64,000 nucleotides of DNA. Origin: Desulfarculaceae bacterium (GTDB taxonomy: Bacteria > Desulfobacterota > Desulfarculia > Desulfarculales > Desulfarculaceae). The translations under genes were made by a program, and so were the position numbers. Under the pieces are notes generated by a model. That model was not told where the DNA came from. It saw only the letters and a program-made list of their open reading frames with translations, and searched no databases. The first letter of the stretch is position 1. Every line of letters begins with the position of its first letter. Below, one piece after another: positions 11,981 to 61,623 of this stretch. The stretch spans positions 139,001-203,000 of the forward strand of contig JAHLKT010000007.1 of NCBI GenBank assembly GCA_020444545.1. The letters are read 5' to 3'.

Positions 11981-11986
11981 CGCGCC

Positions 11987-15152: not shown

Positions 15153-15184
15153 ACCGCCTGGGGAGAGATCTCCCCGGCGGTTTT
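15153..15184 (+). terminator. rho-independent terminator
   Basis: CCGCC and GGCGG bracket an inner GGGGAG/CTCCCC stem, followed by TTTT. It closes the PNPOx-like gene. Confidence 0.85.
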
Positions 15185-15361
15185 GTGGGGGAATTATAAA
15201 TGAGTTAGCTAGAGCTAGGTATTTATTGGCCAACTTTATATGTATTGATGTGGGTGAATGTTGAGTGTTTAACCTGGGTGGGTTTGTTAAGCGGTAACAG
15301 AGGAAAATTATTCATATGCAAACACTGAGTGGTTGGACCATTCGACTGGAGTGGTTAGGTT

Positions 15362-15952
15362 TTGAATGAAAAAAAGACAGGACTGGTTTTAAAGCTAAAA
15401 CTTGATGAAATTGAAAAAGCTGTCGGCCTCTGCATTGGACAGGGATTAATTGAGCCGTCCCTTGTCCTTCTATACTCTGCCATTGATATTTTGGGGTGGC
15501 TTGACAGCAGTGAAGAGTGGGCGTCTAAAAAGAGTTTTATGGCTTGGGCAAACAAATATATTTTAATTGATAATTCATTGAATTGCACTGATATAGAATT
15601 GTATGGTGCCCGCTGCGGCTTGCTCCATACATTTTCACCGGATTCCAAACTTAGTAAACACGGTGAGGTTAGACGTGTTGCTTATGCTTTTGCTCCGGCC
15701 AAAGTCGAGGAGTTGCGTAGAAGTATTGAAGCGATAGAGTGGTCCGATAAATTGGTGGCTGTGCATGTTGGCGACCTCTATGAGAGGTGGCAAATTGGAG
15801 TGGAACGTTTTCTTGAAGATCTTAATAAAGATCAGGCTAGAAAAAGCAAAGTATATTATAAGGTGAGCAAGTTTTTTTCTGTTATGAAACCAGAGGACGT
15901 AAGGAAATTAACCGAGAATATTGAAAATGGTAAGTTAGAGGATACGATCTAG
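15362..15952 (+). CDS. AT-rich hypothetical protein, probably horizontally acquired
   Basis: A 196-residue protein with a TTG start; the nearby ATG at 15366 is out of frame. Its base composition and codon use (many AAA, ATT, TTT, GTA) are very unlike the GC-rich neighbours. Recognisable blocks are LVLLYSAIDILGWL, FMAWANKYIL and YGARCGLLHTFSPDSKLS. I associate these with a widespread uncharacterised family of small accessory-region proteins, but cannot give a function. The flanking 15190-15360 is equally AT-rich, so the transferred segment spans roughly 15190-15960. No mobility gene is attached. Confidence 0.75.
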   Translation: MNEKKTGLVLKLKLDEIEKAVGLCIGQGLIEPSLVLLYSAIDILGWLDSSEEWASKKSFMAWANKYILIDNSLNCTDIELYGARCGLLHTFSPDSKLSKHGEVRRVAYAFAPAKVEELRRSIEAIEWSDKLVAVHVGDLYERWQIGVERFLEDLNKDQARKSKVYYKVSKFFSVMKPEDVRKLTENIENGKLEDTI

Positions 15953-15967
15953 TCCAGTTTTTTTATT

Positions 15968-17524
15968 TCAAAAGACTTTTTGCCCCGATTCTCCATTCTT
16001 CGTCTCCTCCCCCACCGTCTCCAAATTAACCCCAGCGGTCTCGATGCGCAGGAACCAGGTGATCGCCGCCCCGGCGATGCTGGTGCCCATGAGGATGGCC
16101 AGCAGGGTGGGCGCGCCGATATCGCCCAGCACGATGGGGAACCAGAAGGCGGTGAGCACCGCCCCGATCTTGGCGAAGGAGGCCGCCAGGCCCGCGCCCT
16201 TGGCCCGCACCCGGGTGGGGAACACCTCGCCCGCGATGAGGTAGGTCATGGAGTTGGGCCCCAGGTTGGTCATCAGGCTGAAGATCATGAAGCCCATGAA
16301 CAAAAAGCCGATCTGGGCCGGGCCCTCGCCGGACATGGACTGGGAGGCCAGAAAGAGCCCCAGGGCGCAGCCGATGAAGCCGGCCACCTGTAGCTTGATG
16401 CGCCCCAGGCGGTCGGCCAAAAGCACCGCCCCCACGATGCCCACTATGAGCAGCAGGTCGATGAGCGCCGCGCCCTTGGCGGCCAGGATGTCGTTGTAGA
16501 TGATGTCGGCCACGTTGCGCTCGTGCAGGGGCCTGGCCCCGATGGCCGTGGCCAGGATGGTGGGGGTGAAGATGCCGATGCCGTAGGTGCTCAGGTCTTG
16601 CAGGAACCAGGGCAGCGAGGCTAAGAGGGTGGCCCGCCGGTGCTTCTTTTGGAACAGCTCGCCGTACCCCTTGCCGTTGTCGCCCGCCTCTTGGCCGGTC
16701 GCCGGGGCCAGGACGATCTCCTTGGGGTAGGGCGGGTCGCGGTGCAGCAGGCGGCGGGTGGCCGCCACCGCCTCTTCCATGCGTCCCATGGTCACCAGCC
16801 ACTGGGGGCTCTGGGTCACGAAAAAGCGCCCCACACAAACCGCCAGGGCCGGTACCACGGCGGTGGCGTACATCCAGCGCCAGGCCCCCAGGGAGGGGTT
16901 CTTGAACAGGATGAGGTAGCCCACCAGGGTGCCCACCAGGGCGCCCACCGCCTGGAAGCCGAAGGCCCCCAGCACCAGGCGTCCCCGGTCGTTGGTGGGG
17001 ATGCTCTCGGAGATCATCACGTGGGCCGTGGGGTAGTCGCAGCCCAGGGCCAGGCCCATGCCGAAGAGAAACACCAGCACCCAGGCGTAGCCCTGGCTGA
17101 ACACCAGGCAGGCCAGGCACAGGGTGAACAGGAACATCTCGGCGATGAACATGGCCCGGCGGCCCAGGCGGTCGGCCAGGCCGCCCAGAGCGGTGGCCCC
17201 CACCAGGATGCCCAAGAGCGGGGCCGCGCCCACCAGGCCCTTCTCGGCCGGACTCAGGTCGAACTGCCGGACCATCAGGGGCAGGGCCACTCCGGTCATG
17301 AACACCACCAGGCCCTCGAAGAACTTGCCCGCCGTGGCCAGCCACCAGATGCGCCACTGCATGGTGGTCATGGGCGAGGCCGGGGCCTGGGTGCCGTCGG
17401 GCCAGCAGGGGGTCTCGTCTATGTACTCCTGCACCGTCTTGGCCGGGGCCTCGTTCAGGCAGCTCTGGGGCGGCGGGGTTTTGGGCAAAAGGGGCCTCCG
17501 GTCCGTGGGGCGGGTTAAGCTCAT
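15968..17524 (-). CDS. MFS transporter, sugar / aromatic-acid symporter type
   Basis: About 518 residues with twelve predicted membrane helices. The A-like motif GGLADRLGRRAMF between helices 2 and 3 and the LADRLGRIKLQ repeat after helix 8 place it in the major facilitator superfamily; a GCDYPTAHVMISESIPTNDRG stretch resembles metabolite:H+ symporters. It has an unusually long, Pro-rich hydrophilic N-terminus of about 70 residues. The start at 17524 is a choice between several poor sites; the frame continues to 17593. Substrate unknown. Its 3' end converges on the AT-rich gene. Confidence 0.82.
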   Translation of the reverse strand: MSLTRPTDRRPLLPKTPPPQSCLNEAPAKTVQEYIDETPCWPDGTQAPASPMTTMQWRIWWLATAGKFFEGLVVFMTGVALPLMVRQFDLSPAEKGLVGAAPLLGILVGATALGGLADRLGRRAMFIAEMFLFTLCLACLVFSQGYAWVLVFLFGMGLALGCDYPTAHVMISESIPTNDRGRLVLGAFGFQAVGALVGTLVGYLILFKNPSLGAWRWMYATAVVPALAVCVGRFFVTQSPQWLVTMGRMEEAVAATRRLLHRDPPYPKEIVLAPATGQEAGDNGKGYGELFQKKHRRATLLASLPWFLQDLSTYGIGIFTPTILATAIGARPLHERNVADIIYNDILAAKGAALIDLLLIVGIVGAVLLADRLGRIKLQVAGFIGCALGLFLASQSMSGEGPAQIGFLFMGFMIFSLMTNLGPNSMTYLIAGEVFPTRVRAKGAGLAASFAKIGAVLTAFWFPIVLGDIGAPTLLAILMGTSIAGAAITWFLRIETAGVNLETVGEETKNGESGQKVF

Positions 17525-17667
17525 TATGCCAGCCCCGGGCCCCGGGGGGCCAGTTACACTCGCGCGACAGAGGCTTGCCTGAATGGAACTCACTTTTTAG
17601 AATGTAATCATCCGGTTGGGCCGAGCCCCCCGGAGCCCCCCGCGCCCGCACGCCCTCGCCGGGGAGG

Positions 17668-18171
17668 ATGATCGTGGATTCTCTGCAAGCGCCCCAGATC
17701 CGGGAACTGCTTAGCAAAAATTGGATGACCCACGACGCCATGTGGTTTTTCCACTGCCTGCAAGAGTGCGGCATGGCCACCACCAACAAGCTCAACCTGG
17801 CGGCCATCGACTCCATGTCGCGCATCGAGGCCAAGCGCTACTTGGCGGCGCTGGGCATGGATGGCGTCTCGAACCCCGAGGAGCTGGCCCGTTTCATGGC
17901 CGGGGTCTTCGTCCTGGTCAAGGCCGACTTCATGGACTTCGCCTACCAGCTGAGCCCGGACGGGGTGCTTTCCATGGAGATGGGCGAGTGCTTCGCCTAC
18001 CACGGCATCAAGCGCTTGGGGGTGATCGACGAGTACCAGTGCGGCATCTACCGCCGGGTGGAGGGCTGGCTGGACGCCCTGGGCCTGTCCTGGGAGGCAG
18101 AGCCCCCGCTGGAGGGCTGCCTCAAGCACCAACACGGCTGGTGCCGCCGCACCTGGCGCATAAGCTTCTAG
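17668..18171 (+). CDS. conserved hypothetical protein (DUF6125-like)
   Basis: A 167-residue soluble protein of unknown function. The block NWMTHDAMWFFHCLQECG near the start, the DAMWF/HCLQE pattern and several C-terminal cysteines (YQCGIYRR, GCLKHQHGWCRR) recall a family common in anaerobic deltaproteobacteria that I believe is listed as DUF6125. The conserved His and Cys residues could bind a metal or cofactor, but this is a guess. The ATG at 17668 has a good GGGGAGG. It lies inside the stretch separating dsrAB from dsrN-dsrD. Confidence 0.7.
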   Translation: MIVDSLQAPQIRELLSKNWMTHDAMWFFHCLQECGMATTNKLNLAAIDSMSRIEAKRYLAALGMDGVSNPEELARFMAGVFVLVKADFMDFAYQLSPDGVLSMEMGECFAYHGIKRLGVIDEYQCGIYRRVEGWLDALGLSWEAEPPLEGCLKHQHGWCRRTWRISF

Positions 18172-18304
18172 GCCGGGCCGGGGCGCACAATTTTTACCCG
18201 GGCCTCCCAAATGCCGCATAAAAAGCACCCACCCGCCGCACTGCCTGTTTCGGGGCCGTGCGGCAAGCAGCCGTAATTACGCCAAAAAAATAATACGTCT
18301 CCCA

Positions 18305-18320
18305 CGGCACGGACCTTGCT
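18305..18320 (+). promoter_or_regulatory. sigma-54 promoter upstream of SH3-domain gene
   Basis: CGGCAC-N5-TTGCT, with the GG (18306-18307) and GC (18318-18319) dinucleotides separated by the required 10 bp. It starts 75 bp before the next gene. Confidence 0.65.
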
Positions 18321-18379
18321 CATATAGACGAGCAGCCGGCGGCCTTCCCCTCAACCCCCGCCGGCCCGGGAGACGAGCC

Positions 18380-19060
18380 ATGATCAACCCCAAGACAATT
18401 TCGCGCACCGCCCTGGCCCTGTTGCTGGCCGCGCTGCTGGTGCCCCTGGCCGCGCCCCCGGCCCTGGCCCAACGCGGCGGGAACGGCCATGGCGGCGGCT
18501 ACGGCGGCGGCCGTGGCGGCGGGCCCGGCAATTACCAAGGTCCCAAGCGCTACGACCGCATGCCCAAGGGCTACCAGCGCTTCAACTACCGCGGCCGGCC
18601 CTACTACCGCCATGGCGGCGGCTACTACCGTCCCTATCGCGGCGGCTTCCGGTGGGTGCTCCCGCCGGTGGGGATGTTCGTGGCCGCCCTGCCGGTGGGC
18701 TTCGGCACGGTCTACGTGGGCGGGCTGCCCTATTTCTTATACGGCGGGGTCTACTACCGCCCCTATCGCACCGGCTACGTGGTGGTCTCGGCCCCGGTGG
18801 TCGGCGGCACGGTGGTGACTCCGGCCCCGGCCGCGCCCTCGGCCCCGGCCAGCGGCACGGTGGTGGTGCTCTCCGAGGCCCTGAACCTGCGCTCCGGGCC
18901 GGGCATGGGCTACAACGTGGTGGCGGTGCTCAGCCAGAACACGGCGCTGGAGCTGCAAAGTCGCTCCAACGGCTGGCTCTACGTGCGGGCCCCGGGCGGC
19001 CAGATGGGCTGGGTGGCCCGCCAGTTCACCTCGGACAGCACCCCCGTGCCCAGCGGGTAG
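18380..19060 (+). CDS. secreted Gly/Tyr-rich protein with C-terminal SH3 domain
   Basis: A 226-residue protein with a signal peptide (residues 1-~30, ending ALAQR). Next come a Gly-rich stretch, a Tyr/Arg/Gly-rich region (~40-85), a DUF6515-like part with two hydrophobic segments (VLPPVGMFVAALPVG and VYVGGLPYFLYGGVYYRPY), a Pro/Ala linker and a bacterial SH3 domain (~160-222, ALNLRSGPGMGYNVVAVL, GWLYVRAPGGQMGWV). SH3b domains bind cell-wall peptides, so an envelope role is likely. A sigma-54 promoter upstream suggests regulated expression. Confidence 0.8.
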   Translation: MINPKTISRTALALLLAALLVPLAAPPALAQRGGNGHGGGYGGGRGGGPGNYQGPKRYDRMPKGYQRFNYRGRPYYRHGGGYYRPYRGGFRWVLPPVGMFVAALPVGFGTVYVGGLPYFLYGGVYYRPYRTGYVVVSAPVVGGTVVTPAPAAPSAPASGTVVVLSEALNLRSGPGMGYNVVAVLSQNTALELQSRSNGWLYVRAPGGQMGWVARQFTSDSTPVPSG

Positions 19061-19104
19061 ACAATCTCCTTTCCCCAACGCTCCTCATCCCTCCTTTCCC
19101 TCCC

Positions 19105-19140
19105 GCCGCTCTTCCGGCCCTACGGGGCCGGGGGAGCGGC
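19105..19140 (+). terminator. probable terminator hairpin after SH3 gene
   Basis: GCCGCTC and GAGCGGC enclose an inner CCGGCCC/GGGCCGG stem. The following T content is modest. Confidence 0.45.
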
Positions 19141-19208
19141 CTCTTGCTTTCAAGGCCGATAGCGTATAAAAATCGAGCAACTGATTTTTTTCCGAAAGCA
19201 GACTCGCC

Positions 19209-20606
19209 ATGGCGCCAGCCCGGCAAAACCCAGCCCCGCCCCGCGTGGTCATGGCCGCCCTTAGGGGCGGCAGCGGCAAGACCACTCTGACCCTGGGCCT
19301 TATCCAGGCCCTGGCCGACCGTGGTTTGGCCGTGGCGCCCTTCAAGAAGGGCCCGGACTACATCGATCCCTTCTGGCTCAGCGAGGCGGCGGGCGCGCCC
19401 TGCCGCAACCTGGACCCCTATCTCATGGGCCGGGAGCAGGTGCGCCGCTCCTTCACCTGGCACGCGGCGGGCTATGCCGCGGCGGTGATCGAGGGCAACC
19501 GGGGCCTCTACGACGGCATGGACGCGGAGGGGTCCTTCTCCACCGCCGAGCTGGCCAAGATGCTCTCCGCGCCGCTCATCGTGGCCCTGGACTGCTCCAT
19601 GGCCAGCCGGACGGTGGCCGCGGTGGCCCTGGGCTGCCAGCGCTTCGACCCGGAGCTCAACCTGGCGGGCTTCATCCTCAACCCGGTGGGCAACCCCCGC
19701 CAGGAGTCGGTGGTGCGCGCGGCGGTGGAGGCGGCCACGGGCCTGCCGGTGCTGGGCGCGGTGCCCCGGCTGAAGCTGGACCTGCCCGAGCGCCACATGG
19801 GCCTGGTGCCCCCCCAAGAGCACGCCCGGGTGGCCGAGGCCCTGCACCAGGCGGCGCGCAGCGTGGCCGGCCACGTGGACCTGGACGCGGTGTGGTCGCT
19901 GATGACCAGCGCCCCGTCCTGGAGCGGCGAGGGCCCGCCCGAGGGGCTGATGCCCGCCGAGCCGCCCCGGGGCAAGGGCCCGCGCATCGCGGTGATCCGG
20001 GACGCGGCCTTTGGCTTCTACTACGCCGAAAACCTGGAGGCCCTGGCCAACTACGGGGCCGAGCTGGTGTTTTGCTCCGCCCTGGGCGACCGCAAGCTGC
20101 CCGCCGTGGACGCGCTCTACCTGGGCGGCGGCTTCCCCGAGACCCACGCCCGCTCCCTGGCGGCCAACGCCTCCTTCCGGGCCTCGCTCTTGGAGGCGGC
20201 CCGGGACGGCCTGCCCGTCTACGCCGAGTGCGGCGGGCTGATGTACCTGGGCCGCAGCCTCATCGTGGATGGCGAGGCCCACGCCATGGCCGGGATCTTG
20301 CCCCTGGATTTCGCCATGAAGCGCCGGCCCCAGGGCCACGGCTACACCCTGTGCCGGGTTGACGGCGAAAACCCATTTTGGCCCATGGGTTACGAGTTCA
20401 AGGCCCACGAATTCCACTATTCGGAGCCTTTGCCCCTGCCCGAGGCCGAGCTGAGCTTCGCCTACAAGGTTCTCCGGGGCAAGGGCGTCACCGGCGACCG
20501 GGGCGGCTTGGTTTGGCAAAGGGTGCTGGGCACCTATCACCACGTGCACGCCCTGGGCTCGCCGGGGTGGGCTCCGGGCCTGGTCCAGGCGGCCCTAAAA
20601 CAGTAA
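19209..20606 (+). CDS. dsrN: DsrN / CbiA-type glutamine amidotransferase (siroheme or cobyrinate amidase)
   Basis: A 465-residue two-domain protein of the cobyrinate a,c-diamide synthase family. The N-terminal ATPase has the P-loop LRGGSGKTTLTLG and KKGPDYIDPFW; the C-terminal GATase-like domain (~260-465) has the nucleophile cysteine in YAECGGLMYLG and GYEFKAHEFHYS. In dsr loci this family is DsrN, which amidates siroheme for sulfite reductase; with dsrD 79 bp downstream that role is favoured. Cobalamin synthesis is the alternative, but no other cob/cbi gene is present. Confidence 0.9.
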   Translation: MAPARQNPAPPRVVMAALRGGSGKTTLTLGLIQALADRGLAVAPFKKGPDYIDPFWLSEAAGAPCRNLDPYLMGREQVRRSFTWHAAGYAAAVIEGNRGLYDGMDAEGSFSTAELAKMLSAPLIVALDCSMASRTVAAVALGCQRFDPELNLAGFILNPVGNPRQESVVRAAVEAATGLPVLGAVPRLKLDLPERHMGLVPPQEHARVAEALHQAARSVAGHVDLDAVWSLMTSAPSWSGEGPPEGLMPAEPPRGKGPRIAVIRDAAFGFYYAENLEALANYGAELVFCSALGDRKLPAVDALYLGGGFPETHARSLAANASFRASLLEAARDGLPVYAECGGLMYLGRSLIVDGEAHAMAGILPLDFAMKRRPQGHGYTLCRVDGENPFWPMGYEFKAHEFHYSEPLPLPEAELSFAYKVLRGKGVTGDRGGLVWQRVLGTYHHVHALGSPGWAPGLVQAALKQ

Positions 20607-50708: not shown

Positions 50709-51010
50709 GCGGGTTTCTTTCAAGGTGGCCGCCGAGCTCGTCGCCATATCTTGTTTTGGATTTAGCCTTGGTCGGTCCGGCTTGTGTTGGGCCGGCCAAG
50801 TAAAAATCCATAGCTACAAAAACCTGAACTCAACCCCACCAGACAGGCGAAAAACGCCGCTGAAAGGCGTGAACGGTCCGCACCCTACCCCGTGTATAGG
50901 CCGGGACGACTTAGGCGATTTTGGGAGATGGTGCGGTCAATAAAGCTAAAATCCCGGGCTAATTTGTAAGGCACTTCGGTAGGCAAGTGACCTTGCCGCA
51001 CCATCCCCAC

Positions 51011-51223
51011 GCTTTGCATGCCGGCATCTTCTTTCCCACCGACCGCCAGATCAAAATAGCCGGAGAACAAGCCAAAGAGGTCGCCGTGTTCGCTGTGGGC
51101 GAACCGCAGCTTCCGCGCCTCCGCCGAGCCCGAAGAGTAGATATACAGGAGCAGGCCGGCCCGTTGCCATTCTCGCATGGCATCCACAGCGTCGCTGTAT
51201 ACCTGGCCCTTTGGTGCCGGCAT
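51011..51223 (-). pseudogene. mtnC: remnant of enolase-phosphatase E1 (MtnC)
   Basis: About 65 residues match the middle of MtnC, the HAD-family enolase-phosphatase of the methionine salvage pathway: GQVYSDAVDAMREWQRAG, LYIYSSGSAEARKL and LFSGYFDLAVGGK. The N-terminal DxExT nucleophile part and the C-terminal half are missing and similarity stops after the GGK segment, so no working enzyme can be made. It borders the catabolic island, suggesting the island replaced part of a former gene. Confidence 0.72.
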
Positions 51224-51431
51224 GAATTGCGTTCACCCGCCCGATTCGGTGTTCAAGGTGGAAAACCGGCGGCCGGCCCGCTCAATGGGTCGTGGGTTTT
51301 TGCGATTAAATTAAGCATGTTGGCCAAGTTGCAGACGCGACAAATGCCCAGAACCACCGCCTGCGCGACATAAGTCTGCTCGTTGAATAAAAAGTTTCCT
51401 GTTGACAGTAAATTTGTGAAGATGTTATTCA

Positions 51432-51453
51432 GAGATATTATATCTGATATCTC
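51432..51453. promoter_or_regulatory. GntR operator overlapping the promoter
   Basis: GAGATAT-N8-ATATCTC, a perfect 7-bp inverted repeat just upstream of the GntR gene. It overlaps a -10-like TATTAT (51436-51441), with TTGTGA 16 bp upstream, as expected for autorepression. Confidence 0.65.
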
Positions 51454-51465
51454 AGTTGGTCAGTT

Positions 51466-52164
51466 ATGAACCGCCACAAGGAAAACTCGCTATCCGCCGT
51501 AAAGGTGCCGCCTTCCCTAAGAGAGATGGCTTTCGACGCCATCAAGGAAGGGATCATGAGCAACACGCTCAAGGCCGGCCACACCTACAGCGAACATTCC
51601 CTGGCCAAACAACTGGGCATGTCCAAGACCCCGGTTCACGAAGCCTTGCTGGACCTTGCCCTGCGCGGCTTTGTCAACTTGGTGCCGCGCAAGGGGATCG
51701 TAATCAGGTCTCTCTCCATCGATGAGATCAAGGATCTCTACGATTTCCGCCTGGTGCTGGAAGTTGCGGTAATGCGCAAAGTGGCCGGGCACATCACCCC
51801 CTCCCAGATAGAGCGGCTGTGGGAGATACACAACGCTTGCGTGGCGGCCACCGAGGCCGACGATCATGTCGGCTACATCAAAAACGACCGCATATACCAT
51901 TCCTACATGGCCTCCCTGGCCAACAACAGCTACATGGTCGTGGCCTTGGAGAACGTGCGCGACCTCATCGATTGGATGGGGGTTCGCGCCATGACCCGTC
52001 CCGGCCGGTTGCCGGAGGTGGATGTGGAGCACGCCCTGGTAATCGAAAAGCTGGCTGAAAACGACGGCGAGGCGGCCGCCAAGGCCATGGAGGCTCACGT
52101 AAGGGCCACCGAGCACAACTCGCTCTCTTGGCATGATCGTCTTCAAATGGGGGACGAGGCTTGA
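51466..52164 (+). CDS. GntR family (FCD) transcriptional regulator
   Basis: 232 residues. The winged helix-turn-helix is at ~20-85 (YSEHSLAKQLGMSKTPVHEA, then NLVPRKGIVIRSL), followed by the helical FCD ligand domain (~95-220) with DLYDFRLVLEVAVMRKVAG and the His residues that bind metal and carboxylate ligands. It starts the catabolic island, overlaps the cyclase gene by 4 bp and likely responds to the island's substrate or product. Confidence 0.92.
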   Translation: MNRHKENSLSAVKVPPSLREMAFDAIKEGIMSNTLKAGHTYSEHSLAKQLGMSKTPVHEALLDLALRGFVNLVPRKGIVIRSLSIDEIKDLYDFRLVLEVAVMRKVAGHITPSQIERLWEIHNACVAATEADDHVGYIKNDRIYHSYMASLANNSYMVVALENVRDLIDWMGVRAMTRPGRLPEVDVEHALVIEKLAENDGEAAAKAMEAHVRATEHNSLSWHDRLQMGDEA

Positions 52165-52961
52165 ATCCCGAGGAGCTGGCCGCCTTGGCCCAAAAGGCCA
52201 AAGTTTACGACCTAGGCATGGACTATTTCGTGGGCATGCCTCATTTTCCCACCCATCCGCCTTTCACCTTTTCGCTGGGCCGGCTTCACGGGGACCTGCC
52301 ATACGGGGACGAGGGCCTGACCGCCGCCAATTGCGTCTTTTCCACTGGCGGGCACACAGGCACCCACATCGACGCCCTGGGCCACATCAGCGTGAACCGT
52401 CAAGTGCACGGGGTGGGGGACATCACCCCCTTCCAGGGTTATGAGGGCCTTAAAAAAGGCGGCATAGAGGAGGTGGACCCTATCTTCTGCAAGGGTCACC
52501 TGCTGGATATCGCGGGGCACCTGGGAGTGGATTGCCTGGAAAGCGGCTACCCCATCGACCCCCCGGCCCTTGAAGGCGCCTCCCGGGCCTGCGGGGCCGA
52601 GTTGGGCCCCGGCGATGCCGTGCTCATCCGCACCGGATGGATACAACACTTTTCCGACCCGCAAAAATACATCGGTCATGAACACGGCGCTCCGGGCCTG
52701 GTGGAAAGCGGAGCGCGCTGGTTGGCCGACAAGGGAGTCAAGTTTGTAGGCAGCGACACTTCGGCGCTTGAAAAGACGCCTTCGCCGGGATTACCGGTTC
52801 ACGGCATCCTGCTGGTGGAAAACGGAATACACATCATGGAAGTGCTCAACCTGGAGGAACTGGCGGCCGACAAGGCGGCCGATTTCTTGTTTATCGCTCT
52901 ACCTCTGAAGATAAGGGGCGGCACCGGTTCGCCCATTCGCCCCATAGCTGTCGTTTTATAG
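52161..52961 (+). CDS. cyclase family metal-dependent hydrolase
   Basis: 266 residues of the cyclase / kynurenine-formamidase family. The metal motif is FSTGGHTGTHIDALGH (H-x-G-T-H-x-D-x-x-x-H), with DAVLIRTGW and a later GSDTSALEKTPSPGLPVH. Members hydrolyse N-formyl amides, cyclic imides or isatin. The TTG start overlaps the GntR stop. In this context an amide- or ring-opening hydrolase for the same substrate as the oxoprolinase subunits is likely. Cytoplasmic. Confidence 0.88.
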   Translation: MNPEELAALAQKAKVYDLGMDYFVGMPHFPTHPPFTFSLGRLHGDLPYGDEGLTAANCVFSTGGHTGTHIDALGHISVNRQVHGVGDITPFQGYEGLKKGGIEEVDPIFCKGHLLDIAGHLGVDCLESGYPIDPPALEGASRACGAELGPGDAVLIRTGWIQHFSDPQKYIGHEHGAPGLVESGARWLADKGVKFVGSDTSALEKTPSPGLPVHGILLVENGIHIMEVLNLEELAADKAADFLFIALPLKIRGGTGSPIRPIAVVL

Positions 52962-53118
52962 GCGAAATTGCGCCTGCCCAAGCGAAGAGGCCGGGGAAAT
53001 CCGCCCCTTGCGGCCTCGTGGGGCCATCACCAGGCACCAGCCGGAGAACACCGGGTCTTTTGCCGAACTTTGCCGGTAAGGCTCTAGAGGATAAATAGCA
53101 AAATAAGGAGGCATTGCA

Positions 53119-54330
53119 ATGTGTGTATCCATTAAACCCTTGGCGAAGACCCTCGGGCTGCTGGGCCTTATGGCCCTGGCCGGTTTGCTGGTGGTTTCCC
53201 CTGCCTTGACCGGGACCGGCCTGGCCGAGACCAAAACCCTGAAGATCCTCTCCAACAACCCCTTCTCGGGCAAGGCCGCCTCTTGGGGCTTTTCCCAGGA
53301 CCGCGGCGTGGGCCTGGCGGTGGAAGCGGTGAACAAGGCCGGTGGCATCAAGATCGGCGACACCACCTACATGTGGGAAAAGATCCAGTGCGACAACCGC
53401 TACATTCCCGCTGACGCGATTTCCTGCCTGAAACGGGGCGTGGCCCAAGGGGCCAAGTTCATGTGCACCCTGGGCGGGGCGGTGACCAAGCCGCAAATTC
53501 CCCTGATCAACAAGAACAAAATAATCACCATCGCCGCCATTGCCGGCGGGGCCGACTTCACCAACGCCAAGAACAAGTACCTGTTCCGCACCATGCCTTC
53601 GGCCGACCTGACCATGGCCATCGAGGGCATCAAGATTTACAAGAAGCTCGGCGTCAAAAGGCTGGTGCTGCTCACCGCCGACAACGTTCTGGGGCACAGC
53701 GACGCCAAGACCCTGAAGAACGCGCTCAAGGTCAACAACATGAGTGACATCCTGGTGGCCGAGGAGTTCGTGCCCATCGACACCGGCGACTTCTCCCCGG
53801 CGCTTACCCGGATACTGGCAAAGAATCCCGACCATATCGAGGGCGGCGCCTGGCCCGCGGCGGGCCTGGCCCTTTTGATCAAGCAGGCCCGGGAGCTTGG
53901 CTACAAGGGCACCTTCACCAACCTCACCGGCGCTCCCAAGGTGGGCCCCCTGGTCAAGATCGGCGGCAAGAAGAACGTGGAAGGCGTGATCATGCTGCGC
54001 CTGTGGCCGCCGGACCAGCTTCCCACCCAGGCCTTCAAGGACTACTGGGCTAAGTACCGCAAGCTCTACGACCAGGACCCCGGGGCCAACAGCTGGGAGA
54101 GCTACATGGCCTTCATGCACATGTCGGCCGCAGTGCAAAAGGCCCAGAGCCTGGACCCGGACAAGATCGTGGCGGTCATGCGCGACCTGGAGATCAAGAG
54201 CCTGTTGGGCGACCTCAAGCTGATCGGCAAGGACAACCCCCTGCTGCCCGGCTACGGCATCAACAACCAGTACACCTCCCCGCTGCCCCTGACCGAGCTC
54301 AAGGACGGCAAGCCGGTGATCTGGCAGTAA
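53119..54330 (+). CDS. livJ: branched-chain-type ABC transporter substrate-binding protein
   Basis: 403 residues. A long signal peptide (~1-36, ending GLAE) precedes a type I periplasmic binding fold with LKILSNNPFSGKAASWG, CLKRGVAQGAKFMCTLGG and RMPSADLTMAIEGIK-like FRTMPSADLTMA. It delivers a small amide, amino acid or aromatic to LivHMGF. TAAGGAGG-type site before the ATG. A strong hairpin lies between it and livH and may limit permease expression. Confidence 0.88.
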   Translation: MCVSIKPLAKTLGLLGLMALAGLLVVSPALTGTGLAETKTLKILSNNPFSGKAASWGFSQDRGVGLAVEAVNKAGGIKIGDTTYMWEKIQCDNRYIPADAISCLKRGVAQGAKFMCTLGGAVTKPQIPLINKNKIITIAAIAGGADFTNAKNKYLFRTMPSADLTMAIEGIKIYKKLGVKRLVLLTADNVLGHSDAKTLKNALKVNNMSDILVAEEFVPIDTGDFSPALTRILAKNPDHIEGGAWPAAGLALLIKQARELGYKGTFTNLTGAPKVGPLVKIGGKKNVEGVIMLRLWPPDQLPTQAFKDYWAKYRKLYDQDPGANSWESYMAFMHMSAAVQKAQSLDPDKIVAVMRDLEIKSLLGDLKLIGKDNPLLPGYGINNQYTSPLPLTELKDGKPVIWQ

Positions 54331-54354
54331 GGCCGCGCGCCATCTAACCCCAAC

Positions 54355-54393
54355 GGCCGGCCGGCGCCCCCAAGCCCGGTGCGCCGGCCGGCC
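54355..54393 (+). promoter_or_regulatory. strong hairpin between binding protein and permease genes
   Basis: GGCCGGCCGGCGC pairs perfectly with GCGCCGGCCGGCC (13 bp). Little T follows, so it may act as a partial terminator or mRNA stabiliser giving more binding protein than permease. Confidence 0.6.
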
Positions 54394-54428
54394 TTGCTCA
54401 AAGACCCCAAGGGAAATCGGTTGACACC

Positions 54429-55292
54429 GTGACGACACAGATGTTCATGCAGATGGTGGTCACCGGGCTGGTGCTGGGTTCCATCTATATGTTGGTGGCC
54501 TCGGGGCTCACCCTGATCTACGGCATCATGCACCAGGTGAACATGGCCCACGGCGTGTTCTTCATGCTGGGCGCCATGGCCACCTATTACGCCACCGAGG
54601 TTTTGGGCCTGCCCTATTTCGTCTCCCTGTTTTCCCTGGTGCTGGTCTTTCCTTTTATCGGGGCGGCGTTCGAGCGATCCATCTTCCGCAACATCCGCCA
54701 CATCTGGCTGGCCGGCTACATGGCCACCGTGGGCGTGTGGATGCTCATGGAGGGCCTGGGCTGGCAGGTGTTCGGCACCGAGCAGAAAGCGGTGAGCTTC
54801 CCCATAACCGGCCTGATCCGTTTCCCGGGCGGGGCGGTGTTGCCGGCCAACAAGATGTGGGTGGGCATCATCGCCATCGCCATCATGGTGGGAGTCTACT
54901 ACCTGGTGGGCCGCACCACCCTGGGCCGCCAGCTCAGGGCGGTGGAGCAGAACCCCCGCGCCGCCGAGCTGATGGGCATCAACGCCGATCGGGCCGCGGC
55001 CAAGGGCTTCGCCCTGGGAGTTACCCTGGCCGCCCTGGCCGGCGGGCTGGTGAGCACCCTGTACTCGGTGGACCCCTCCTGCGGCTCCACCCCCATGCTC
55101 AAGGCCTTCATCATCATCATCCTGGGCGGCCTGGGCAGCGTCACCGGCTCGGTGATCGCGGCCTACATCCTGGGGTTCATCGACTCTTTCGGAGGCAGCC
55201 TCCTGGGGCACCAGGCCAGCCACTTCATGGGATTCGGCCTGGTGATCCTCATCCTCATCTTCAAACCGGCCGGGATCATGGGCGATGAATAA
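54429..55292 (+). CDS. livH: branched-chain-type ABC transporter permease (LivH)
   Basis: 287 residues, about eight membrane helices. GLVLGSIYMLVASGLTLIYG and NMAHGVFFMLGAMATYY open it; the cytoplasmic EAA-like segment is RAVEQNPRAAELMGINADRA. It begins with GTG after AATCGG and overlaps livM by 8 bp. Confidence 0.93.
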   Translation: MTTQMFMQMVVTGLVLGSIYMLVASGLTLIYGIMHQVNMAHGVFFMLGAMATYYATEVLGLPYFVSLFSLVLVFPFIGAAFERSIFRNIRHIWLAGYMATVGVWMLMEGLGWQVFGTEQKAVSFPITGLIRFPGGAVLPANKMWVGIIAIAIMVGVYYLVGRTTLGRQLRAVEQNPRAAELMGINADRAAAKGFALGVTLAALAGGLVSTLYSVDPSCGSTPMLKAFIIIILGGLGSVTGSVIAAYILGFIDSFGGSLLGHQASHFMGFGLVILILIFKPAGIMGDE

Positions 55293-56283
55293 GAAGCTGA
55301 TCCCCTATATCGCGGGGCTGGCGGTCATGGCCGTCCTGGCCCTGTTGCCGCCCCTGTTCAAGCTGGCCGCGCCGGAGATGTGGGAGCTCAGCGCCCACAT
55401 CGGCATCCGCATCCTGCTCAACGTGGGCTTCGGCCTGTGCCTGTGGCTGATGCTCCAGGCCGGTGAACTCAGCCTGGGCCAGGGCGGCTTCATCACCATC
55501 GGGGCCTACACCACCGGCATCCTGGTGGCCAAGTACGAGCTGATCAGCGTGGTGTGGCTGGGCTATCTGGCCGGGGCGGCGGTGGCCGCGCTGTTCGCCC
55601 TGATGCTGGGCTACCTCATCGTGCACCTCAAGCGAATCTTCTTTTTGCTGGTCACCTGGTCCTTCGCCGAGATGCTGCACCCGGTGCTCACCTCCTTCGA
55701 GCATCCCTTCGGCGGGGCCATGGGCATCATCGACATCCCCGGCCCGGAGGGCGTTTCCCTGTTCAGCGAGTCCTGGACCGGCTATTACTACATCGCCCTC
55801 CTATACGGCTTCGCGGTGCTCTGGCTGGTCTGGCGGGTGGCCGGTTCCAAGATCGGGCTGATCAACAAGTCCATCGGGCTCAACGACGAACTGGTCACCT
55901 TCTGCGGGCTCTACGTGCGCAAGTACAAGGTCATGGTCTTCGTGCTGGGCTGCTTCATCACCGGCATCGGCGGGGGCATCCTGGCCAGCTACCTCACGGC
56001 CATCTCGCCCGAGACCTTCACCTTCTTCACCTCGCTGGACATCATCATGTTCAACCTCATTGGAGGCATGGGCAGCATCGCCGGGCCCATCGTGGGGGCG
56101 GTGATCCTCACGGGCCTGAACGAGTACCTGTTCGCGGTGGGCTACTGGCGCATGGTGATCTACGGCCTGATCATCATCTTCTTCATCACCATGTTGCCCG
56201 GCGGCATGATCTCCCTGCCCGCGGTTATCCGCGCCCGGTTGAGCCGCGGCAACAAGGAGGGGGAGGCCGGTCATGGACGATAG
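55285..56283 (+). CDS. livM: branched-chain-type ABC transporter permease (LivM)
   Basis: 332 residues, about nine helices, with GELSLGQGGFITIGAYTTGI and MFNLIGGMGSIAGPIVGAVI, the latter two being LivM hallmarks. The end overlaps livG by 11 bp. Pairs with LivH. Confidence 0.92.
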   Translation: MNKKLIPYIAGLAVMAVLALLPPLFKLAAPEMWELSAHIGIRILLNVGFGLCLWLMLQAGELSLGQGGFITIGAYTTGILVAKYELISVVWLGYLAGAAVAALFALMLGYLIVHLKRIFFLLVTWSFAEMLHPVLTSFEHPFGGAMGIIDIPGPEGVSLFSESWTGYYYIALLYGFAVLWLVWRVAGSKIGLINKSIGLNDELVTFCGLYVRKYKVMVFVLGCFITGIGGGILASYLTAISPETFTFFTSLDIIMFNLIGGMGSIAGPIVGAVILTGLNEYLFAVGYWRMVIYGLIIIFFITMLPGGMISLPAVIRARLSRGNKEGEAGHGR

Positions 56284-57037
56284 GGAAATCCTGCGGGTGA
56301 GCGAGGTGGGCAAGAACTTCGGCGGGTTGGAGGCCCTGACCGAGGTGAGCTTCGCGGTGGAGACCGGCGAGTTCTTTGGGCTCATCGGGCCCAACGGCGC
56401 CGGCAAGTCGGTGATGGTCAACCTGATCAGCGGCATGTACCGCCCCAGCCGGGGACAGATCACCTTCGACGGCCAACTCATAACCGGCCTCAGGCCGGAC
56501 CGCATCATCAAGATGGGCCTCAGCCGCACCTTCCAGCACTCCACTCTGTTCTTCGACCTCACGGTGCGCCAGAACATCATGATGGGGGTGCGCGAACTGG
56601 CCGGGGTGGGCCTTTTGGAATCCATAATGCGCACCGCGGGGGCCCGGGCCAAGGATCGGGACATAGAGGCGCGGGCCCAGGAGGTGATGGAGACCCTGGA
56701 TCTGAGCGGGCAGGCCGAGGAAAAGGCGGCCAACCTGCCTTATGGCCTGCAAAAGGTGGTGGCCATCGGCATCGCCATCGCGCCTCGGCCCAAGGTGCTG
56801 GTCCTGGACGAGCCCCTCACCGGGCTGGTGGCCGCGGAGGTGGACCAGGTGATGGGCCATATCGCGGCGCTAAACCGCCAGGGCATGACCATCTTCATCA
56901 TCGAGCACAACATGCGGGCCATGATGCATCACTGCGGCCGCATGATGGTCTTGAGCTTCGGCAACAAGATCGCCGAGGGCGCCCCGTCGGAGATACAAAA
57001 GAACCCCGAAGTCATCAAATCCTATCTAGGGGAATAA
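56273..57037 (+). CDS. livG: ABC transporter ATPase (LivG)
   Basis: 254 residues. Walker A is GPNGAGKSVMVNLISG, Walker B VLVLDEP, the H-loop FIIEHNM. The C-loop reads LPYGLQKVVAIGIAIA, departing from the usual LivG form by losing the conserved Arg after the helix start. The LivG-specific PEVIKSYLGE end is present. Confidence 0.92.
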   Translation: MDDREILRVSEVGKNFGGLEALTEVSFAVETGEFFGLIGPNGAGKSVMVNLISGMYRPSRGQITFDGQLITGLRPDRIIKMGLSRTFQHSTLFFDLTVRQNIMMGVRELAGVGLLESIMRTAGARAKDRDIEARAQEVMETLDLSGQAEEKAANLPYGLQKVVAIGIAIAPRPKVLVLDEPLTGLVAAEVDQVMGHIAALNRQGMTIFIIEHNMRAMMHHCGRMMVLSFGNKIAEGAPSEIQKNPEVIKSYLGE

Positions 57038-57039
57038 GC

Positions 57040-57756
57040 TTGGCCTTGCTGGAGTTGAAACAGGTCGTGGCGGGCTATGGCCCGGCGGTGGCCCTGCACG
57101 AAGTCAGCCTGACCCTGGAGGCGGGGCAGCGCGTCTCCCTCCTGGGGGCCAACGGGGCCGGCAAGAGCTCCACGGTCAACGTGATCAGCGGGCTGTTGCC
57201 CATCCGCGCGGGAGAGGTTTGGTTCCAGGGCCAGAGGATCGACCAGGTGCCCGCCCACCGGGTGGTGGGCCTGGGCATCGCCCAGATACCCGAAGGCCGC
57301 CTGGTCTTCCCCAAGATGACGGTGTGGGAGAACCTGGAGCTGGGGGCCACCGCCCTGGGCGACCAGGCCCAGAAAAACGAGCTGCTGCGCGAGGTGTACG
57401 AGCTTTTTCCCCGTTTGGCCGAGCGGCGCAAGCAGCTGGCCGGCACCATGAGCGGGGGCGAGCAGCAGATGCTGGCCGTGGGGCGCGCCCTGATGTCCCG
57501 GCCCAGGCTGATCCTTTCCGACGAGATATCCATGGGCCTGGCCCCCATGGTGGTGCGCGACATCTACGACACTCTGTTGCGCATCAACCAGGAGTGGGGG
57601 GTGACCCTTTTGATGGTGGAGCAGGAGGCCAAGCTGGCCCTGGAAGTGGCCGACACCTGCCACCTGCTGGAATCCGGGCACATCGTGGCCTCGGGCACCG
57701 CCCGGGAGATGGCCCAGAGCGAGCTGGTGCGCAAAGTGTATTTGGCCGAAGACTAG
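57040..57756 (+). CDS. livF: ABC transporter ATPase (LivF)
   Basis: 238 residues, TTG start. Walker A GANGAGKSSTVNVISG, signature TMSGGEQQMLAVGRALMSRP, Walker B LILSDEISMGLAP and EGRLVFPKMTVWENL, all typical of LivF. Completes the LivJHMGF uptake system. Confidence 0.93.
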   Translation: MALLELKQVVAGYGPAVALHEVSLTLEAGQRVSLLGANGAGKSSTVNVISGLLPIRAGEVWFQGQRIDQVPAHRVVGLGIAQIPEGRLVFPKMTVWENLELGATALGDQAQKNELLREVYELFPRLAERRKQLAGTMSGGEQQMLAVGRALMSRPRLILSDEISMGLAPMVVRDIYDTLLRINQEWGVTLLMVEQEAKLALEVADTCHLLESGHIVASGTAREMAQSELVRKVYLAED

Positions 57757-57807
57757 GCTGTTCGATGTCCCGGCCCCGGGAGACGGGGTCCGGCCGAGGG
57801 AGTAATC

Positions 57808-59136
57808 ATGTCCGGGACCAGCAGTTCGGTGTTTCCCCGCCGCCTGGGCGAGCCGTTGCCCATGGCGGTTTCCGGCGAGGGGGTTTGGCTTTTCGACGCG
57901 GACGGCAAGCGCTATCTCGACGCCTCGGGGGGCGCGGTGGTGGTCAACCTGGGCCATGCCAGGGAAGAGATAGTCCGGGCGGTGGCCGAGCAAATGGGCA
58001 AGCTTTCCTACGCCCATCCCACCATGTTCACCAGCGTGCCGGTGGAGGATTTGGCCACGGCTCTGTCCGCCCATACCCCCGGCGATTTGAATCGCTTCTA
58101 CTTCATGACCTCCGGTTCGGAGGCCAACGAGACCGCCATAAAGCTGGCCCGGCAGATCCACCAGGCCCGGGGGGAGCACGACAGGACCGTGCTGATCTCC
58201 CGCTGGCGCTCCTACCACGGCCTGACCATGGGCGCCTTGGCCGCGGCCGGCCGCCCGGCCTTCCGCACGGCCTACATGCCTATGATTCACGACGCGGTGC
58301 ACATACCGCCGCCCTATTGCCTGCGCTGCTCCTACGGTTTGGAGCACCCCTCCTGCGGGCTGCGCTGCGCCTTGGCCCTGGATGAGACCATCCAGAACCT
58401 GGGCCCCAAGGTGGTCTCGGCCTTTCTTATCGAGCCGGTGAGCGGCGCCACCCTGGCCGGGTGGCCTCCTCCGGAAGGCTACCTGGAGATGGTGCGTGAT
58501 ATCTGCAGCCGATACGGGGTGCTTTTGATCTTCGACGAGGTCATGACCGGCATGGGGCGCACGGGCGACTGGTTCGCCGGTTGCCGCTATGGGGTGACCC
58601 CGGACATGATGACCCTGGGCAAGGGGCTCACCGGCGGTCATTTGGCCTTGTCCGCCGTGGCGGTGAGCCAGGAGCATTACGCGGCGGTGGAGCAAGGCCT
58701 GGGCGCCTTCAACCACGGCGGCACCTACAGCCACCACCCGGTGGGCTGCGCCGCCGGCTTGGCCGCGGTGCGCATTCTGGAGAAGGAAAAACTTGTCGAG
58801 CGGGCCGGGGCCATGGAGCCTTTTTTGGGGGAGCAGCTTAGCCGGCACTTGCTCGACTCGCCTTTCGTGGCCAGCGTGAGGGGAGTCGGCATGCTCTGGG
58901 GCGTGGAGCTGGTGGCCGACAAACAGACTTTGCGGCCCTTTGCCCGGAGCGAAAAGGTGACCGAGCGCCTGTGGCAGCATCTTTTCGAGCGTGGCATCCT
59001 CGTGTATAAGGCGGTAGGTTTGGCCGGCGTGGATGGGGACGCCTTGGTGGTGTCGCCGCCTTTTATCATGGACCGGGAACAAATCACCCAGGTGGCCGTT
59101 GCCATTAAAGAGGCCATCAACGAGGTGCTGGGTTAA
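57808..59136 (+). CDS. class III PLP aminotransferase
   Basis: 442 residues of the omega-amino-acid / GABA aminotransferase family. NRFYFMTSGSEANETAIKLA binds PLP phosphate, IFDEVMTGMGRTG holds the PLP Asp and TLGKGLTGG the Schiff-base Lys. A CLRC/CGLRC cysteine group near residue 170 is seen in many members. It most likely transaminates an omega-amino acid produced by lactam opening. It is co-directional with the ABC genes and pxp genes. Confidence 0.92.
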   Translation: MSGTSSSVFPRRLGEPLPMAVSGEGVWLFDADGKRYLDASGGAVVVNLGHAREEIVRAVAEQMGKLSYAHPTMFTSVPVEDLATALSAHTPGDLNRFYFMTSGSEANETAIKLARQIHQARGEHDRTVLISRWRSYHGLTMGALAAAGRPAFRTAYMPMIHDAVHIPPPYCLRCSYGLEHPSCGLRCALALDETIQNLGPKVVSAFLIEPVSGATLAGWPPPEGYLEMVRDICSRYGVLLIFDEVMTGMGRTGDWFAGCRYGVTPDMMTLGKGLTGGHLALSAVAVSQEHYAAVEQGLGAFNHGGTYSHHPVGCAAGLAAVRILEKEKLVERAGAMEPFLGEQLSRHLLDSPFVASVRGVGMLWGVELVADKQTLRPFARSEKVTERLWQHLFERGILVYKAVGLAGVDGDALVVSPPFIMDREQITQVAVAIKEAINEVLG

Positions 59137-59146
59137 TCGATAGAGC

Positions 59147-59884
59147 ATGCTTTTCCCGAAGCCTCAATTAAAGCCGTCCGGGGACCGTGCCTTGCGCATA
59201 ACCTTTGGGGACGAGCGCAGCCTGGAGGTCAACCGCCCGGTGCGGGCCTTGAGCGGTATGCTCGAGTCCCAATCCATCCCCGGCCTGCGGGAGATGGTGC
59301 CCACCTACGCCTCCTTGACCGTGCTCTACGATCCCGACGCCGTCGCTTTCCAGGAGCTGAAGTCGCGCCTGGAGGAGATGGCCGAGACGGCCATGAGCCG
59401 CAAGGATGAGGAAAACGCGGGAAGGCTGCTGCGCATACCGGTTTGCTACCAGGGGCCCTATGCGCCGGACATGGAATATATCTGCGACTACACCGGACTC
59501 AGCCCGCGGGAAGTGATCAGCCTGCACACCCAAGAAGCCTACTTCGTGTTTCAGCTCGGCTTCACCCCCGGCTGCCCTTTCATCGGGCCTTTGCAGGAGC
59601 AGCTGCACGTGCCCCTGATGCAGTCGCCGCGCACCCACACCCCCAAGGGGGCGGTGGCCATCAGCGTGGGGCAAACCGTGATTTACCCCCGGGCCACCCC
59701 GGGGGGCATGCGCATAGTGGGCAGCACCCCGGTGCAGCTTTTCCAGCTCGAGCATTCGGACCTGACCCTGTTCAAACCGGGGGACCGGGTGCGGTTCGCC
59801 GCCGTGGACCTGGCCGAGTATCGGGACATAGAGGCGCGGGCCGTAAAGCTTTACGACGGGGTGGAGATCCTCGGCCATGACTGA
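59147..59884 (+). CDS. pxpB: 5-oxoprolinase subunit B
   Basis: 245 residues of the PxpB/KipI family. FQLGFTPGCPFIGPL and the PRTHTPKGAVAISVGQTVIYP stretch are diagnostic. With PxpA and PxpC it hydrolyses 5-oxoproline to glutamate using ATP. It starts 10 bp after the aminotransferase and overlaps pxpC by 8 bp. Confidence 0.92.
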   Translation: MLFPKPQLKPSGDRALRITFGDERSLEVNRPVRALSGMLESQSIPGLREMVPTYASLTVLYDPDAVAFQELKSRLEEMAETAMSRKDEENAGRLLRIPVCYQGPYAPDMEYICDYTGLSPREVISLHTQEAYFVFQLGFTPGCPFIGPLQEQLHVPLMQSPRTHTPKGAVAISVGQTVIYPRATPGGMRIVGSTPVQLFQLEHSDLTLFKPGDRVRFAAVDLAEYRDIEARAVKLYDGVEILGHD

Positions 59885-60833
59885 GGGCGTTGCCTTCATA
59901 AGGGTTTTGCAACCCGGCGCCCAAAGCTCGGTGCAAGACTTGGGCAGGCCGGGATATCAGAGCCTGGGCATTGCCGAGGCCGGAGGCATGGACTGCTACT
60001 CCCTGGTGCAGGCCAACCGCCTGTTGGGTAACCCGGACAACGCCGCCGCCCTGGAGATGACCCTGGTGGGCCCCAGGCTGCGCTTCCAGCGGGACGGAAG
60101 CTTCGCTCTGGCCGGCGCCGACCTTTCGGCCCGGCTGGGCGGCGAGCCCCTCGCGCCGGGGCGGGCCTACCGCGCCGCAGCGGGGCAGGTGTTGAAGTTC
60201 GGTCCCCGGCGCAACGGCATGCGGGCCTATCTGGCGGTCCCGGGCGGTATGGACACCCCCCTGGTCCTGGGCAGCCGCTCCACCTACATCTATGCCGGTT
60301 TCGGAGGCCCCGCGGGGCGATCCCTGCAAAAGGACGATCTGCTGCAATGCCTTTCCGACCCTGAAAGCGTCCGGGCGACCTCTGATGTGCCCGCCGATTT
60401 GCTGCTGCCCCTGGACGGCCCCCGGGTGCTCAGGGTCGTAATCGGCCCGCAAGAGGAGCGCTTCACCAGCCAGGGCATCGCGACTTTTCTAAGCTCCACT
60501 TTTAAGGTGACCACCGAGTCCAACCGCATGGGCTACCGCCTCGACGGGCCGCGTATAGAGCACTCCGACGGGCCTATCGTGGTGAGCGAGGCCACGCCCT
60601 TGGGCGCGGTCCAGGTGCCGGGCCAGGGGCGCCCGGTGCTGCTGCTCAGGGAGCGCGGCACCACCGGCGGTTACACCAAGATCGCTTGCATCATATCCGC
60701 CGACATCGACAAGGTGGGCCAAGCGCCGCCCGGGTTCGAGATAAGCTTCCAAGCCGTGGAATTGGACCAGGCGCACCAGGCCGAGCGCCAAAGGTGGCTC
60801 GCCTTGGATGCCTGGCTTCCGCCAATCAAGTGA
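59877..60833 (+). CDS. pxpC: 5-oxoprolinase subunit C
   Basis: 318 residues of the PxpC/KipA family (cyclophilin-like). QPGAQSSVQDLGRPGYQSLG opens it, GGMDTPLVLGSRSTYIYAGF and TSNRMGYRL-like TESNRMGYRLDGP follow, and RPVLLLRERGTTGGYTKIA is diagnostic. Works with PxpB. Confidence 0.92.
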   Translation: MTEGVAFIRVLQPGAQSSVQDLGRPGYQSLGIAEAGGMDCYSLVQANRLLGNPDNAAALEMTLVGPRLRFQRDGSFALAGADLSARLGGEPLAPGRAYRAAAGQVLKFGPRRNGMRAYLAVPGGMDTPLVLGSRSTYIYAGFGGPAGRSLQKDDLLQCLSDPESVRATSDVPADLLLPLDGPRVLRVVIGPQEERFTSQGIATFLSSTFKVTTESNRMGYRLDGPRIEHSDGPIVVSEATPLGAVQVPGQGRPVLLLRERGTTGGYTKIACIISADIDKVGQAPPGFEISFQAVELDQAHQAERQRWLALDAWLPPIK

Positions 60834-60843
60834 GGCAATGTAA

Positions 60844-61623
60844 ATGAGCGTGATAGACCTCAACTGCGACATGGGCGAAAGCTTCGGGCCCTACAGCATG
60901 GGTTATGACCAGCAGGTGATGGAGCACATCACCTCGGCTAACATCGCCTGCGGCTGGCACGCCGGAGACCCGGTGGTAATGAACAAGACCGTGGCCATGG
61001 CGGCCGAACACGGCGTAAGCGTGGGCGCCCACCCCGGCTATCCGGACCTGCTGGGATTCGGCCGGCGGCACATGGAATGCTCACCTGCGGAGCTGCGCGA
61101 CTACGTTGTTTACCAAGTGGGTGCTCTGGACGCATTTTGCCGCCTGCACGGCATCGCCCTCAGCCACGTGAAGCCCCACGGCAAGCTCTACCTCGATTGC
61201 CTGGATCGGGAGGATCAGGCCAGGGTCATCGCCCAGGCGGTCTACGATTACAATCCCGGGCTCATCTATGTGGCCTTTGCCGGTGCCAGGGGCGAGGTGA
61301 TGCGACAGGTGGCCAAGCAAGTGGGGCTCAAGGTGGCCTTCGAGGCCTTTCCCGACCGGGCCTACACTCCCCAAGGCACCCTCACCCTTAGGGGGGAGCC
61401 CGGCGCGGTGGTCACGGACCCGGCCGAGGTCGCCGAGAGGGCCTACCGGGTGGCCACGGAGCAAAAGATGGTCACTACCGACGGCAGCGTGATCGACCTG
61501 GAAGCGCAGACCCTTTGCGTGCACGGCGACACGCCCACCGCCCTGGAGTTGGTTAAGTCCATCCGCGGGAAACTGACCGCCGAGGGAGTGAAAGTTGCCC
61601 CTATGTCCGAATTCCTGCAATAG
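60844..61623 (+). CDS. pxpA: 5-oxoprolinase subunit A (LamB/YcsF)
   Basis: 259 residues. DLNCDMGESFGPYSMGYDQQ, ANIACGWHAGDP, GAHPGYPDLLGFGRR and VKPHGKLY are the YcsF signatures. Completes pxpBCA. The set could act on 5-oxoproline itself or on another lactam of the island. Confidence 0.94.
   Translation: MSVIDLNCDMGESFGPYSMGYDQQVMEHITSANIACGWHAGDPVVMNKTVAMAAEHGVSVGAHPGYPDLLGFGRRHMECSPAELRDYVVYQVGALDAFCRLHGIALSHVKPHGKLYLDCLDREDQARVIAQAVYDYNPGLIYVAFAGARGEVMRQVAKQVGLKVAFEAFPDRAYTPQGTLTLRGEPGAVVTDPAEVAERAYRVATEQKMVTTDGSVIDLEAQTLCVHGDTPTALELVKSIRGKLTAEGVKVAPMSEFLQ

Follow-up and report, generated by a model that had tools for sequence, protein, structure and literature searches.

A conserved operon in a Desulfarculaceae bacterium joins PxpABC to a class III aminotransferase and may allow a lactam distinct from L-5-oxoproline to be used

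A stretch of 64,000 nucleotides from the 4.38-Mb genome of a Desulfarculaceae bacterium of the sulfate-reducer type (assembly GCA_020444545.1, contig 7, bases 139001–203000; hereafter the window) carries an operon of eleven plus-strand genes at 51466–61623, encoding a GntR regulator, a cyclase-family hydrolase, a substrate-binding protein, the LivHMGF components of an ATP-binding cassette (ABC) transporter, a class III aminotransferase and the ring-opening subunits PxpB, PxpC and PxpA. We consider it somewhat probable that this operon lets the cell utilise a lactam different from L-5-oxoproline, through import, ATP-driven opening and transamination under local GntR control; the individual reactions and the identity of the lactam are what we infer from gene content, conservation, a unique operator and sequence divergences. 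An ATP-driven pathway whose substrate may not be 5-oxoproline had been proposed in the initial annotation, and this proposal is supported by a separate 5-oxoproline-type locus in the genome, the type of the binding protein, changes in PxpB and the paralogue of the aminotransferase described below.

In the mechanism that we propose, the binding protein and LivHMGF would take up a small cyclic amide, and ATP-driven activation of the ring amide would fall to PxpB and PxpC, its hydrolysis to an amino acid to PxpA. The class III aminotransferase would then transfer the amino group laid bare by ring opening, probably one in omega position, to a keto acid; the resulting aldehyde acid would enter central metabolism. 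The cyclase-family metallohydrolase may play an accessory part, hydrolysing an amide or ring in a precursor or side substrate, and GntR would sit on the palindrome at 51432–51455 until released by the substrate. Our leading guess for the latter is a simple gamma- or delta-lactam, for example 2-pyrrolidinone or 2-piperidinone, which may bear a carboxylate or some other substituent.

Four further genomes of the genus show an identical gene order (L004, L006, L091 and L005, the last without the cyclase gene), with protein identities of 70–94%, and a sixth copy (L147) contains the GntR, cyclase and binding-protein genes before its contig ends. The genes flanking the module differ from copy to copy. 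Because the order recurs in relatives with different flanks, the grouping is not due to chance, and the six genomes share a single conserved, self-contained module. When the genome collection was searched with the aminotransferase, three close copies (73–89%) were recovered and the next match stood at 39%; the module therefore seems confined to this genus. Gene families were checked by Pfam and NCBIfam profiles, and neighbouring genes overlap by up to 11 bp or stand up to 157 bp apart, so that the gene set, single direction and short gaps or overlaps of the initial annotation were recovered for 11 of 11 genes.

All six copies keep a TTGACA box and the palindrome GAGATATTATATCTGATATCTCAG ahead of gntR, and aligning the six upstream regions shows TTGAC without variation. 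The palindrome is a single site in the genome at up to two mismatches, with none expected in shuffles of the window. Given this uniqueness, GntR probably acts as a local regulator dedicated to this operon. A generic promoter and terminator scan of this region performed no better than chance.

The ring-opening enzyme has all three subunits present and adjacent (PF02682, PF02626 and PF03746; TIGR00370 above cut-off), and its PxpA falls in a monophyletic clade of window-type sequences (100/100) in a 44-row tree. We defined invariant columns on ordinary loci and held out each clade in turn. By this test 9 of 36 otherwise invariant columns (25%) are changed in the window PxpB (G102, G106, V112, A113, F143, R157, G178, W188 and I191), with substitutions that include F143C, R157L, G178V and W188M, compared with 0–5% for held-out ordinary clades of at least two rows. 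The two other clades linked to an aminotransferase, T3 (the type found on contig 3) and D, have 42% and 31% of these columns changed, and F143, R157, G178 and W188 are altered in all three. PxpA residues R172 and R183, invariant in 22 of 22 ordinary rows, are lost in T3 and D. We read this pattern as a putative substrate shift in the window, T3 and D clades, less complete in the window.

Several observations on the same subunits weigh against such a shift. The window PxpA nests among ordinary A-B-C loci, apart from T3 and D, and is near canonical, with 1 of 57 invariant columns changed and both arginines kept; PxpC is likewise near canonical (2 of 53). E. coli PxpB alone has 17% of its columns changed, so drift alone can shift such positions, and the ordinary row L107 has 8%. 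The placement of PxpA and its single changed residue would suit a second 5-oxoproline system, which would take up 5-oxoproline or a derivative of it and form glutamate through PxpABC; the aminotransferase would then draw its amino groups from glutamate or serve an unrelated amine. Such a system would resemble that of Corynebacterium glutamicum, proven to act on 5-oxoproline, in combining GntR with pxpABC (PMC13274462), and Liv transporters beside PxpABC are common in the phylum. We nevertheless regard it as unlikely, since a complete locus of the 5-oxoproline type, pyroglutamate-type binding protein included, is already present in the genome, the binding protein and PxpB of the window are unlike that type, and glutamate use needs no aminotransferase.

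The window PxpC scores 236.7 bits against the equivalog NF045499 (cut-off 500), and ordinary loci of the phylum are about as low against E. coli PxpC. Little weight was given to PxpA K114 (PHGKLY motif, 5 of 5 copies) as a sign of substrate change, as the position varies among ordinary loci, and single-sequence prediction of the PxpB structure was uninformative (predicted local distance difference test score, pLDDT, of 32). Hydantoinase A/B domains of the CapAB/OplAB-type lactamases were absent from a Pfam scan of the operon's soluble proteins. Separately, a PxpA clade in L113 and L114 (PxpA at 8774–9550 and 9707–10483) has HFTWHGSAG in place of the HVKPHGALY motif, a marked departure within the most conserved region that may mark another substrate change.

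The genome carries three PxpA genes. One lies on contig 4 (L049; C4:305500–325000, locus positions 3278–11607), where PxpA and a fused PxpBC are divergent from genes for a binding protein and LivHMGF, an arrangement that is common in the phylum. Its binding protein matches PDB entry 8wch, described as the structure of SAR11_0655 with co-purified L-pyroglutamate, over its full length (280 bits, E 7.5e-83). Scores against the same entry are 198–406 bits for the binding proteins of eleven further ordinary PxpABC loci from the phylum, and proteins of this type accompany most ordinary PxpABC-Liv loci sampled there. The contig 4 locus is thus probably a dedicated 5-oxoproline system.

The window binding protein appears to be of another kind. 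Its own matches at E 1e-5 do not include 8wch, and four window-type proteins of related genomes reach 19–24 bits against that entry, compared with 44 for E. coli LivJ. The initial annotation had held that a leucine-type binding protein would speak against a lactam pathway. The LivJ ligand contacts, which we take to be S79, A100, T102, Y202 and E226, are substituted in each of the five window-type copies (S79G, A100I, T102G, Y202W and E226T or S), so that judged by sequence the protein is probably neither of the L-pyroglutamate nor of the leucine type. Its structure model is of moderate quality (pLDDT 65), and the fold search could not pick a ligand class; as that search pointed to 8wch, the comparison with this entry was made by sequence. 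A profile search with A2, in which 8wch ranked first, was set aside, since A2 includes the ordinary-locus protein L049.

The aminotransferase has the catalytic lysine (K272) and is nearest to the PRK07483 subfamily (NF005685, 448 bits, below the cut-off of 485). Its sister is AT2 of L100 and L150 (tree support 100/99, about 61% identity), which lies in an operon with the order binding protein-LivHMGF-ECH-thiolase-AbfD-AT2 kept in both; ECH stands for enoyl-CoA hydratase. AbfD of this operon matches the 4-hydroxybutyryl-CoA dehydratase 1u8v with 595 bits (E 9e-178). A set of Liv, ECH, thiolase, AbfD and aminotransferase genes constitutes the anaerobic route for gamma-aminobutyrate (GABA). Because its sister sits in such an operon, it is plausible that the window enzyme acts on an omega-amino acid despite missing the arginines of GabT. 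Those missing residues tell against this assignment: GabT R141, E211 and R398 are replaced by L, A and V, as they are also lacking in sampled relatives of the PRK07483 subfamily, and we know of no experimentally tested substrate for the subfamily. The 25 best NCBIfam matches of the window enzyme do not include TIGR00700 (GABA transaminase). In L100 (C4:416001–436000, 9761–19343) the probable GABA-type operon is followed by a GntR gene, a second Liv system and a nitrilase gene.

A more distant relative (about 38%) adjoins an apparent kynureninase gene and a Liv system in L011, so the substrate may also be another amine. Enzymes of the subfamily stand beside Liv systems without PxpABC in L100 and L011, and on alphaproteobacterial plasmids they occur in other gene settings, as would suit an operon whose core pathway handles a linear omega-amino acid or amine, with PxpABC merely recycling 5-oxoproline from a gamma-glutamylated intermediate or from spontaneous cyclisation. 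That reading looks quite unlikely to us, as neither a glutamate-amine ligase nor a gamma-glutamylcyclotransferase turned up in the operon by Pfam and NCBIfam profiles, the separate PxpABC of the genome could do the recycling, and the window PxpB has diverged.

The cyclase-family hydrolase keeps its HxGTHxD metal motif (HTGTHID from residue 65) and matches PDB entry 5ibz (E 2e-20) and isatin hydrolase (E 1e-10). Since isatin hydrolase opens a ring amide, and since the window PxpA keeps the R172 and R183 lost by T3 and D, the substrate could be a carboxylated lactam or cyclic imide (for example 6-oxopipecolate, hydantoin-type or imide rings), with the cyclase opening a first bond and PxpABC a second. 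We hold this to be very unlikely: by Pfam none of the operon's soluble proteins belongs to a hydantoinase family, and the binding of a carboxylate by the two arginines of PxpA is a guess. The otherwise intact L005 copy, moreover, has no cyclase gene between gntR and the binding-protein gene, which also counts against the lactam pathway that we favour; as one of six copies does without it at that place, the cyclase is not supported as a needed step. The initial annotation's suggestion of an imide draws only on this cyclase and is not supported either.

PxpABC adjoins an aminotransferase in three locus types (the window, contig 3 and D). This genome has about nine class III aminotransferases among some 4,000 genes, and two of its three PxpABC loci have one adjacent, with a chance probability roughly estimated at P ~1e-4. 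Among 29 PxpA loci from Pseudomonadota, a class III aminotransferase was detected directly adjacent in none and within about 6 kb in two; the absence of direct neighbours indicates that the link is uncommon. The locus on contig 3 (L048; C3:406000–425500, locus positions 3640–13045) has the order rbsA-rbsC-PxpA-aminotransferase-PxpB-PxpC-biotin carboxylase-OYE-type reductase and recurs in L094, L096, L108 and L109, and partly in L106 and L112. Its PxpB and PxpC score best against urea carboxylase, and a simple MKM/AMK search found no biotinyl-domain motif in the gap of the locus. Its aminotransferase exceeds the curated cut-off for GABA transaminase (TIGR00700, 555 versus 507) and its PxpA carries R172L and R183T, on which grounds it appears a better candidate than the window locus for conversion of 2-pyrrolidinone to GABA. 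Pyrrolidinone, one of the lactams named in the initial annotation, thus stays within our leading guess for the window, but the contig 3 locus fits it better.

The parallel changes at otherwise invariant PxpB residues would mark copies of PxpABC that have been re-aimed. We suggest tentatively, and with some doubt, that PxpABC is a scaffold redirected several times, with 5-oxoproline exchanged for other lactams, each copy with its own transporter and omega-aminotransferase (window, contig 3 and D). As a side observation, the association of PxpABC with biotin carboxylase is common in the sampled Pseudomonadota loci; L131 and L134 (rhizobial plasmids) and L132 (a Thioclava plasmid) have PxpA, fused PxpBC and biotin carboxylase, and in L131 and L134 glycolate oxidase genes follow, with bhc genes of the beta-hydroxyaspartate cycle close by.

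The features of the operon are listed in the table. The operon proper begins at the predicted operator, at 51432. The initial annotation had set the start at 50885, which takes in an opposite-strand open reading frame (50885–51223, minus strand, 112 amino acids). We ruled this out as a member: it is a fragment of acireductone synthase (MtnC; TIGR01691, 74 bits versus a cut-off of 128, covering profile positions 97–160 of 224), a decayed gene or insertion scar adjoining the operon, and no such fragment was seen beside the other operon copies. Downstream, MaoC (61903) and a CoA-transferase (62563) were rejected as further steps, as they are not kept beside the operon in L004, L006 and L091.

Table. 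Features of the operon and its upstream region (positions in the window)
Feature	Position	Strand	Basis or remark
Promoter region	51402–51431	+	TTGACA at 51402–51407
Predicted GntR operator GAGATATTATATCTGATATCTCAG	51432–51455	+	7-bp inverted arms GAGATAT/ATATCTC
GntR/FCD transcriptional regulator	51466–52164	+	PF00392, PF07729
Cyclase-family metal-dependent hydrolase (isatin hydrolase/arylformamidase superfamily)	52161–52961	+	PF04199, 91 bits
Substrate-binding protein, Peripla_BP_6	53119–54330	+	PF13458
LivH-type permease	54429–55292	+	NCBIfam
LivM-type permease	55285–56283	+	NCBIfam
LivG-type ATPase	56273–57037	+	NCBIfam
LivF-type ATPase	57040–57756	+	NCBIfam
Class III (omega-type) aminotransferase, PRK07483 subfamily	57808–59136	+	PF00202
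PxpB (CT_C_D, KipI-type)	59147–59884	+	PF02682; TIGR00370 166.8 bits versus cut-off 145.6
PxpC (CT_A_B, KipA-type)	59877–60833	+	PF02626; TIGR00724 above cut-off
PxpA (LamB/YcsF)	60844–61623	+	PF03746

All parts of the operon come from known families, and its arrangement can be set against several known systems. In Aspergillus nidulans, the fungal lam genes work with the GABA transaminase gatA on 2-pyrrolidinone, so that a LamB/YcsF protein is linked to an omega-aminotransferase as in the window, but in a fungus and with other regulation and transport. The GABA-type operon of L100 and L150 shares the sister aminotransferase and a Liv transporter with the window but has no PxpABC. The contig 3 locus likewise has PxpABC with an adjacent class III aminotransferase and differs in passing the GABA-transaminase cut-off, in its PxpA substitutions, in its rbs-type ABC transporter and in its biotin carboxylase. 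The PxpABC 5-oxoprolinases of E. coli, Bacillus subtilis and C. glutamicum (pxpR-pxpTABC; PMC13274462) have the same three subunits, and the last also has a GntR-type regulator beside a dedicated transporter; the window has Liv-type ABC uptake instead of PxpT, an added aminotransferase and cyclase, and a PxpB altered at positions that are invariant in ordinary loci, and its genome has a separate 5-oxoproline-type locus. The caprolactam pathway of Pseudomonas jessenii, with the lactamase CapAB and a 6-aminohexanoate aminotransferase (PMC8453981, PMC6061476), follows a similar logic of ATP-driven lactam opening and then an omega-aminotransferase, but CapAB is of the hydantoinase/OPLAH type and unrelated to the ring-opening PxpABC of the window.

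We found no report in the openly licensed literature of PxpABC acting on another lactam. If our proposal is correct, the operon would reveal that anaerobes have a new, ATP-dependent way to use lactams of the pyrrolidinone or nylon type, and would put at hand for testing a lactam-sensing GntR with a defined operator. Were PxpABC indeed a repeatedly redirected scaffold, some anaerobes would break down simple lactams with no need of lactamases of the hydantoinase type. Homologues of PxpABC routinely receive the annotation 5-oxoprolinase; if the window and contig 3 loci act on other lactams, many of these annotations would be too narrow.

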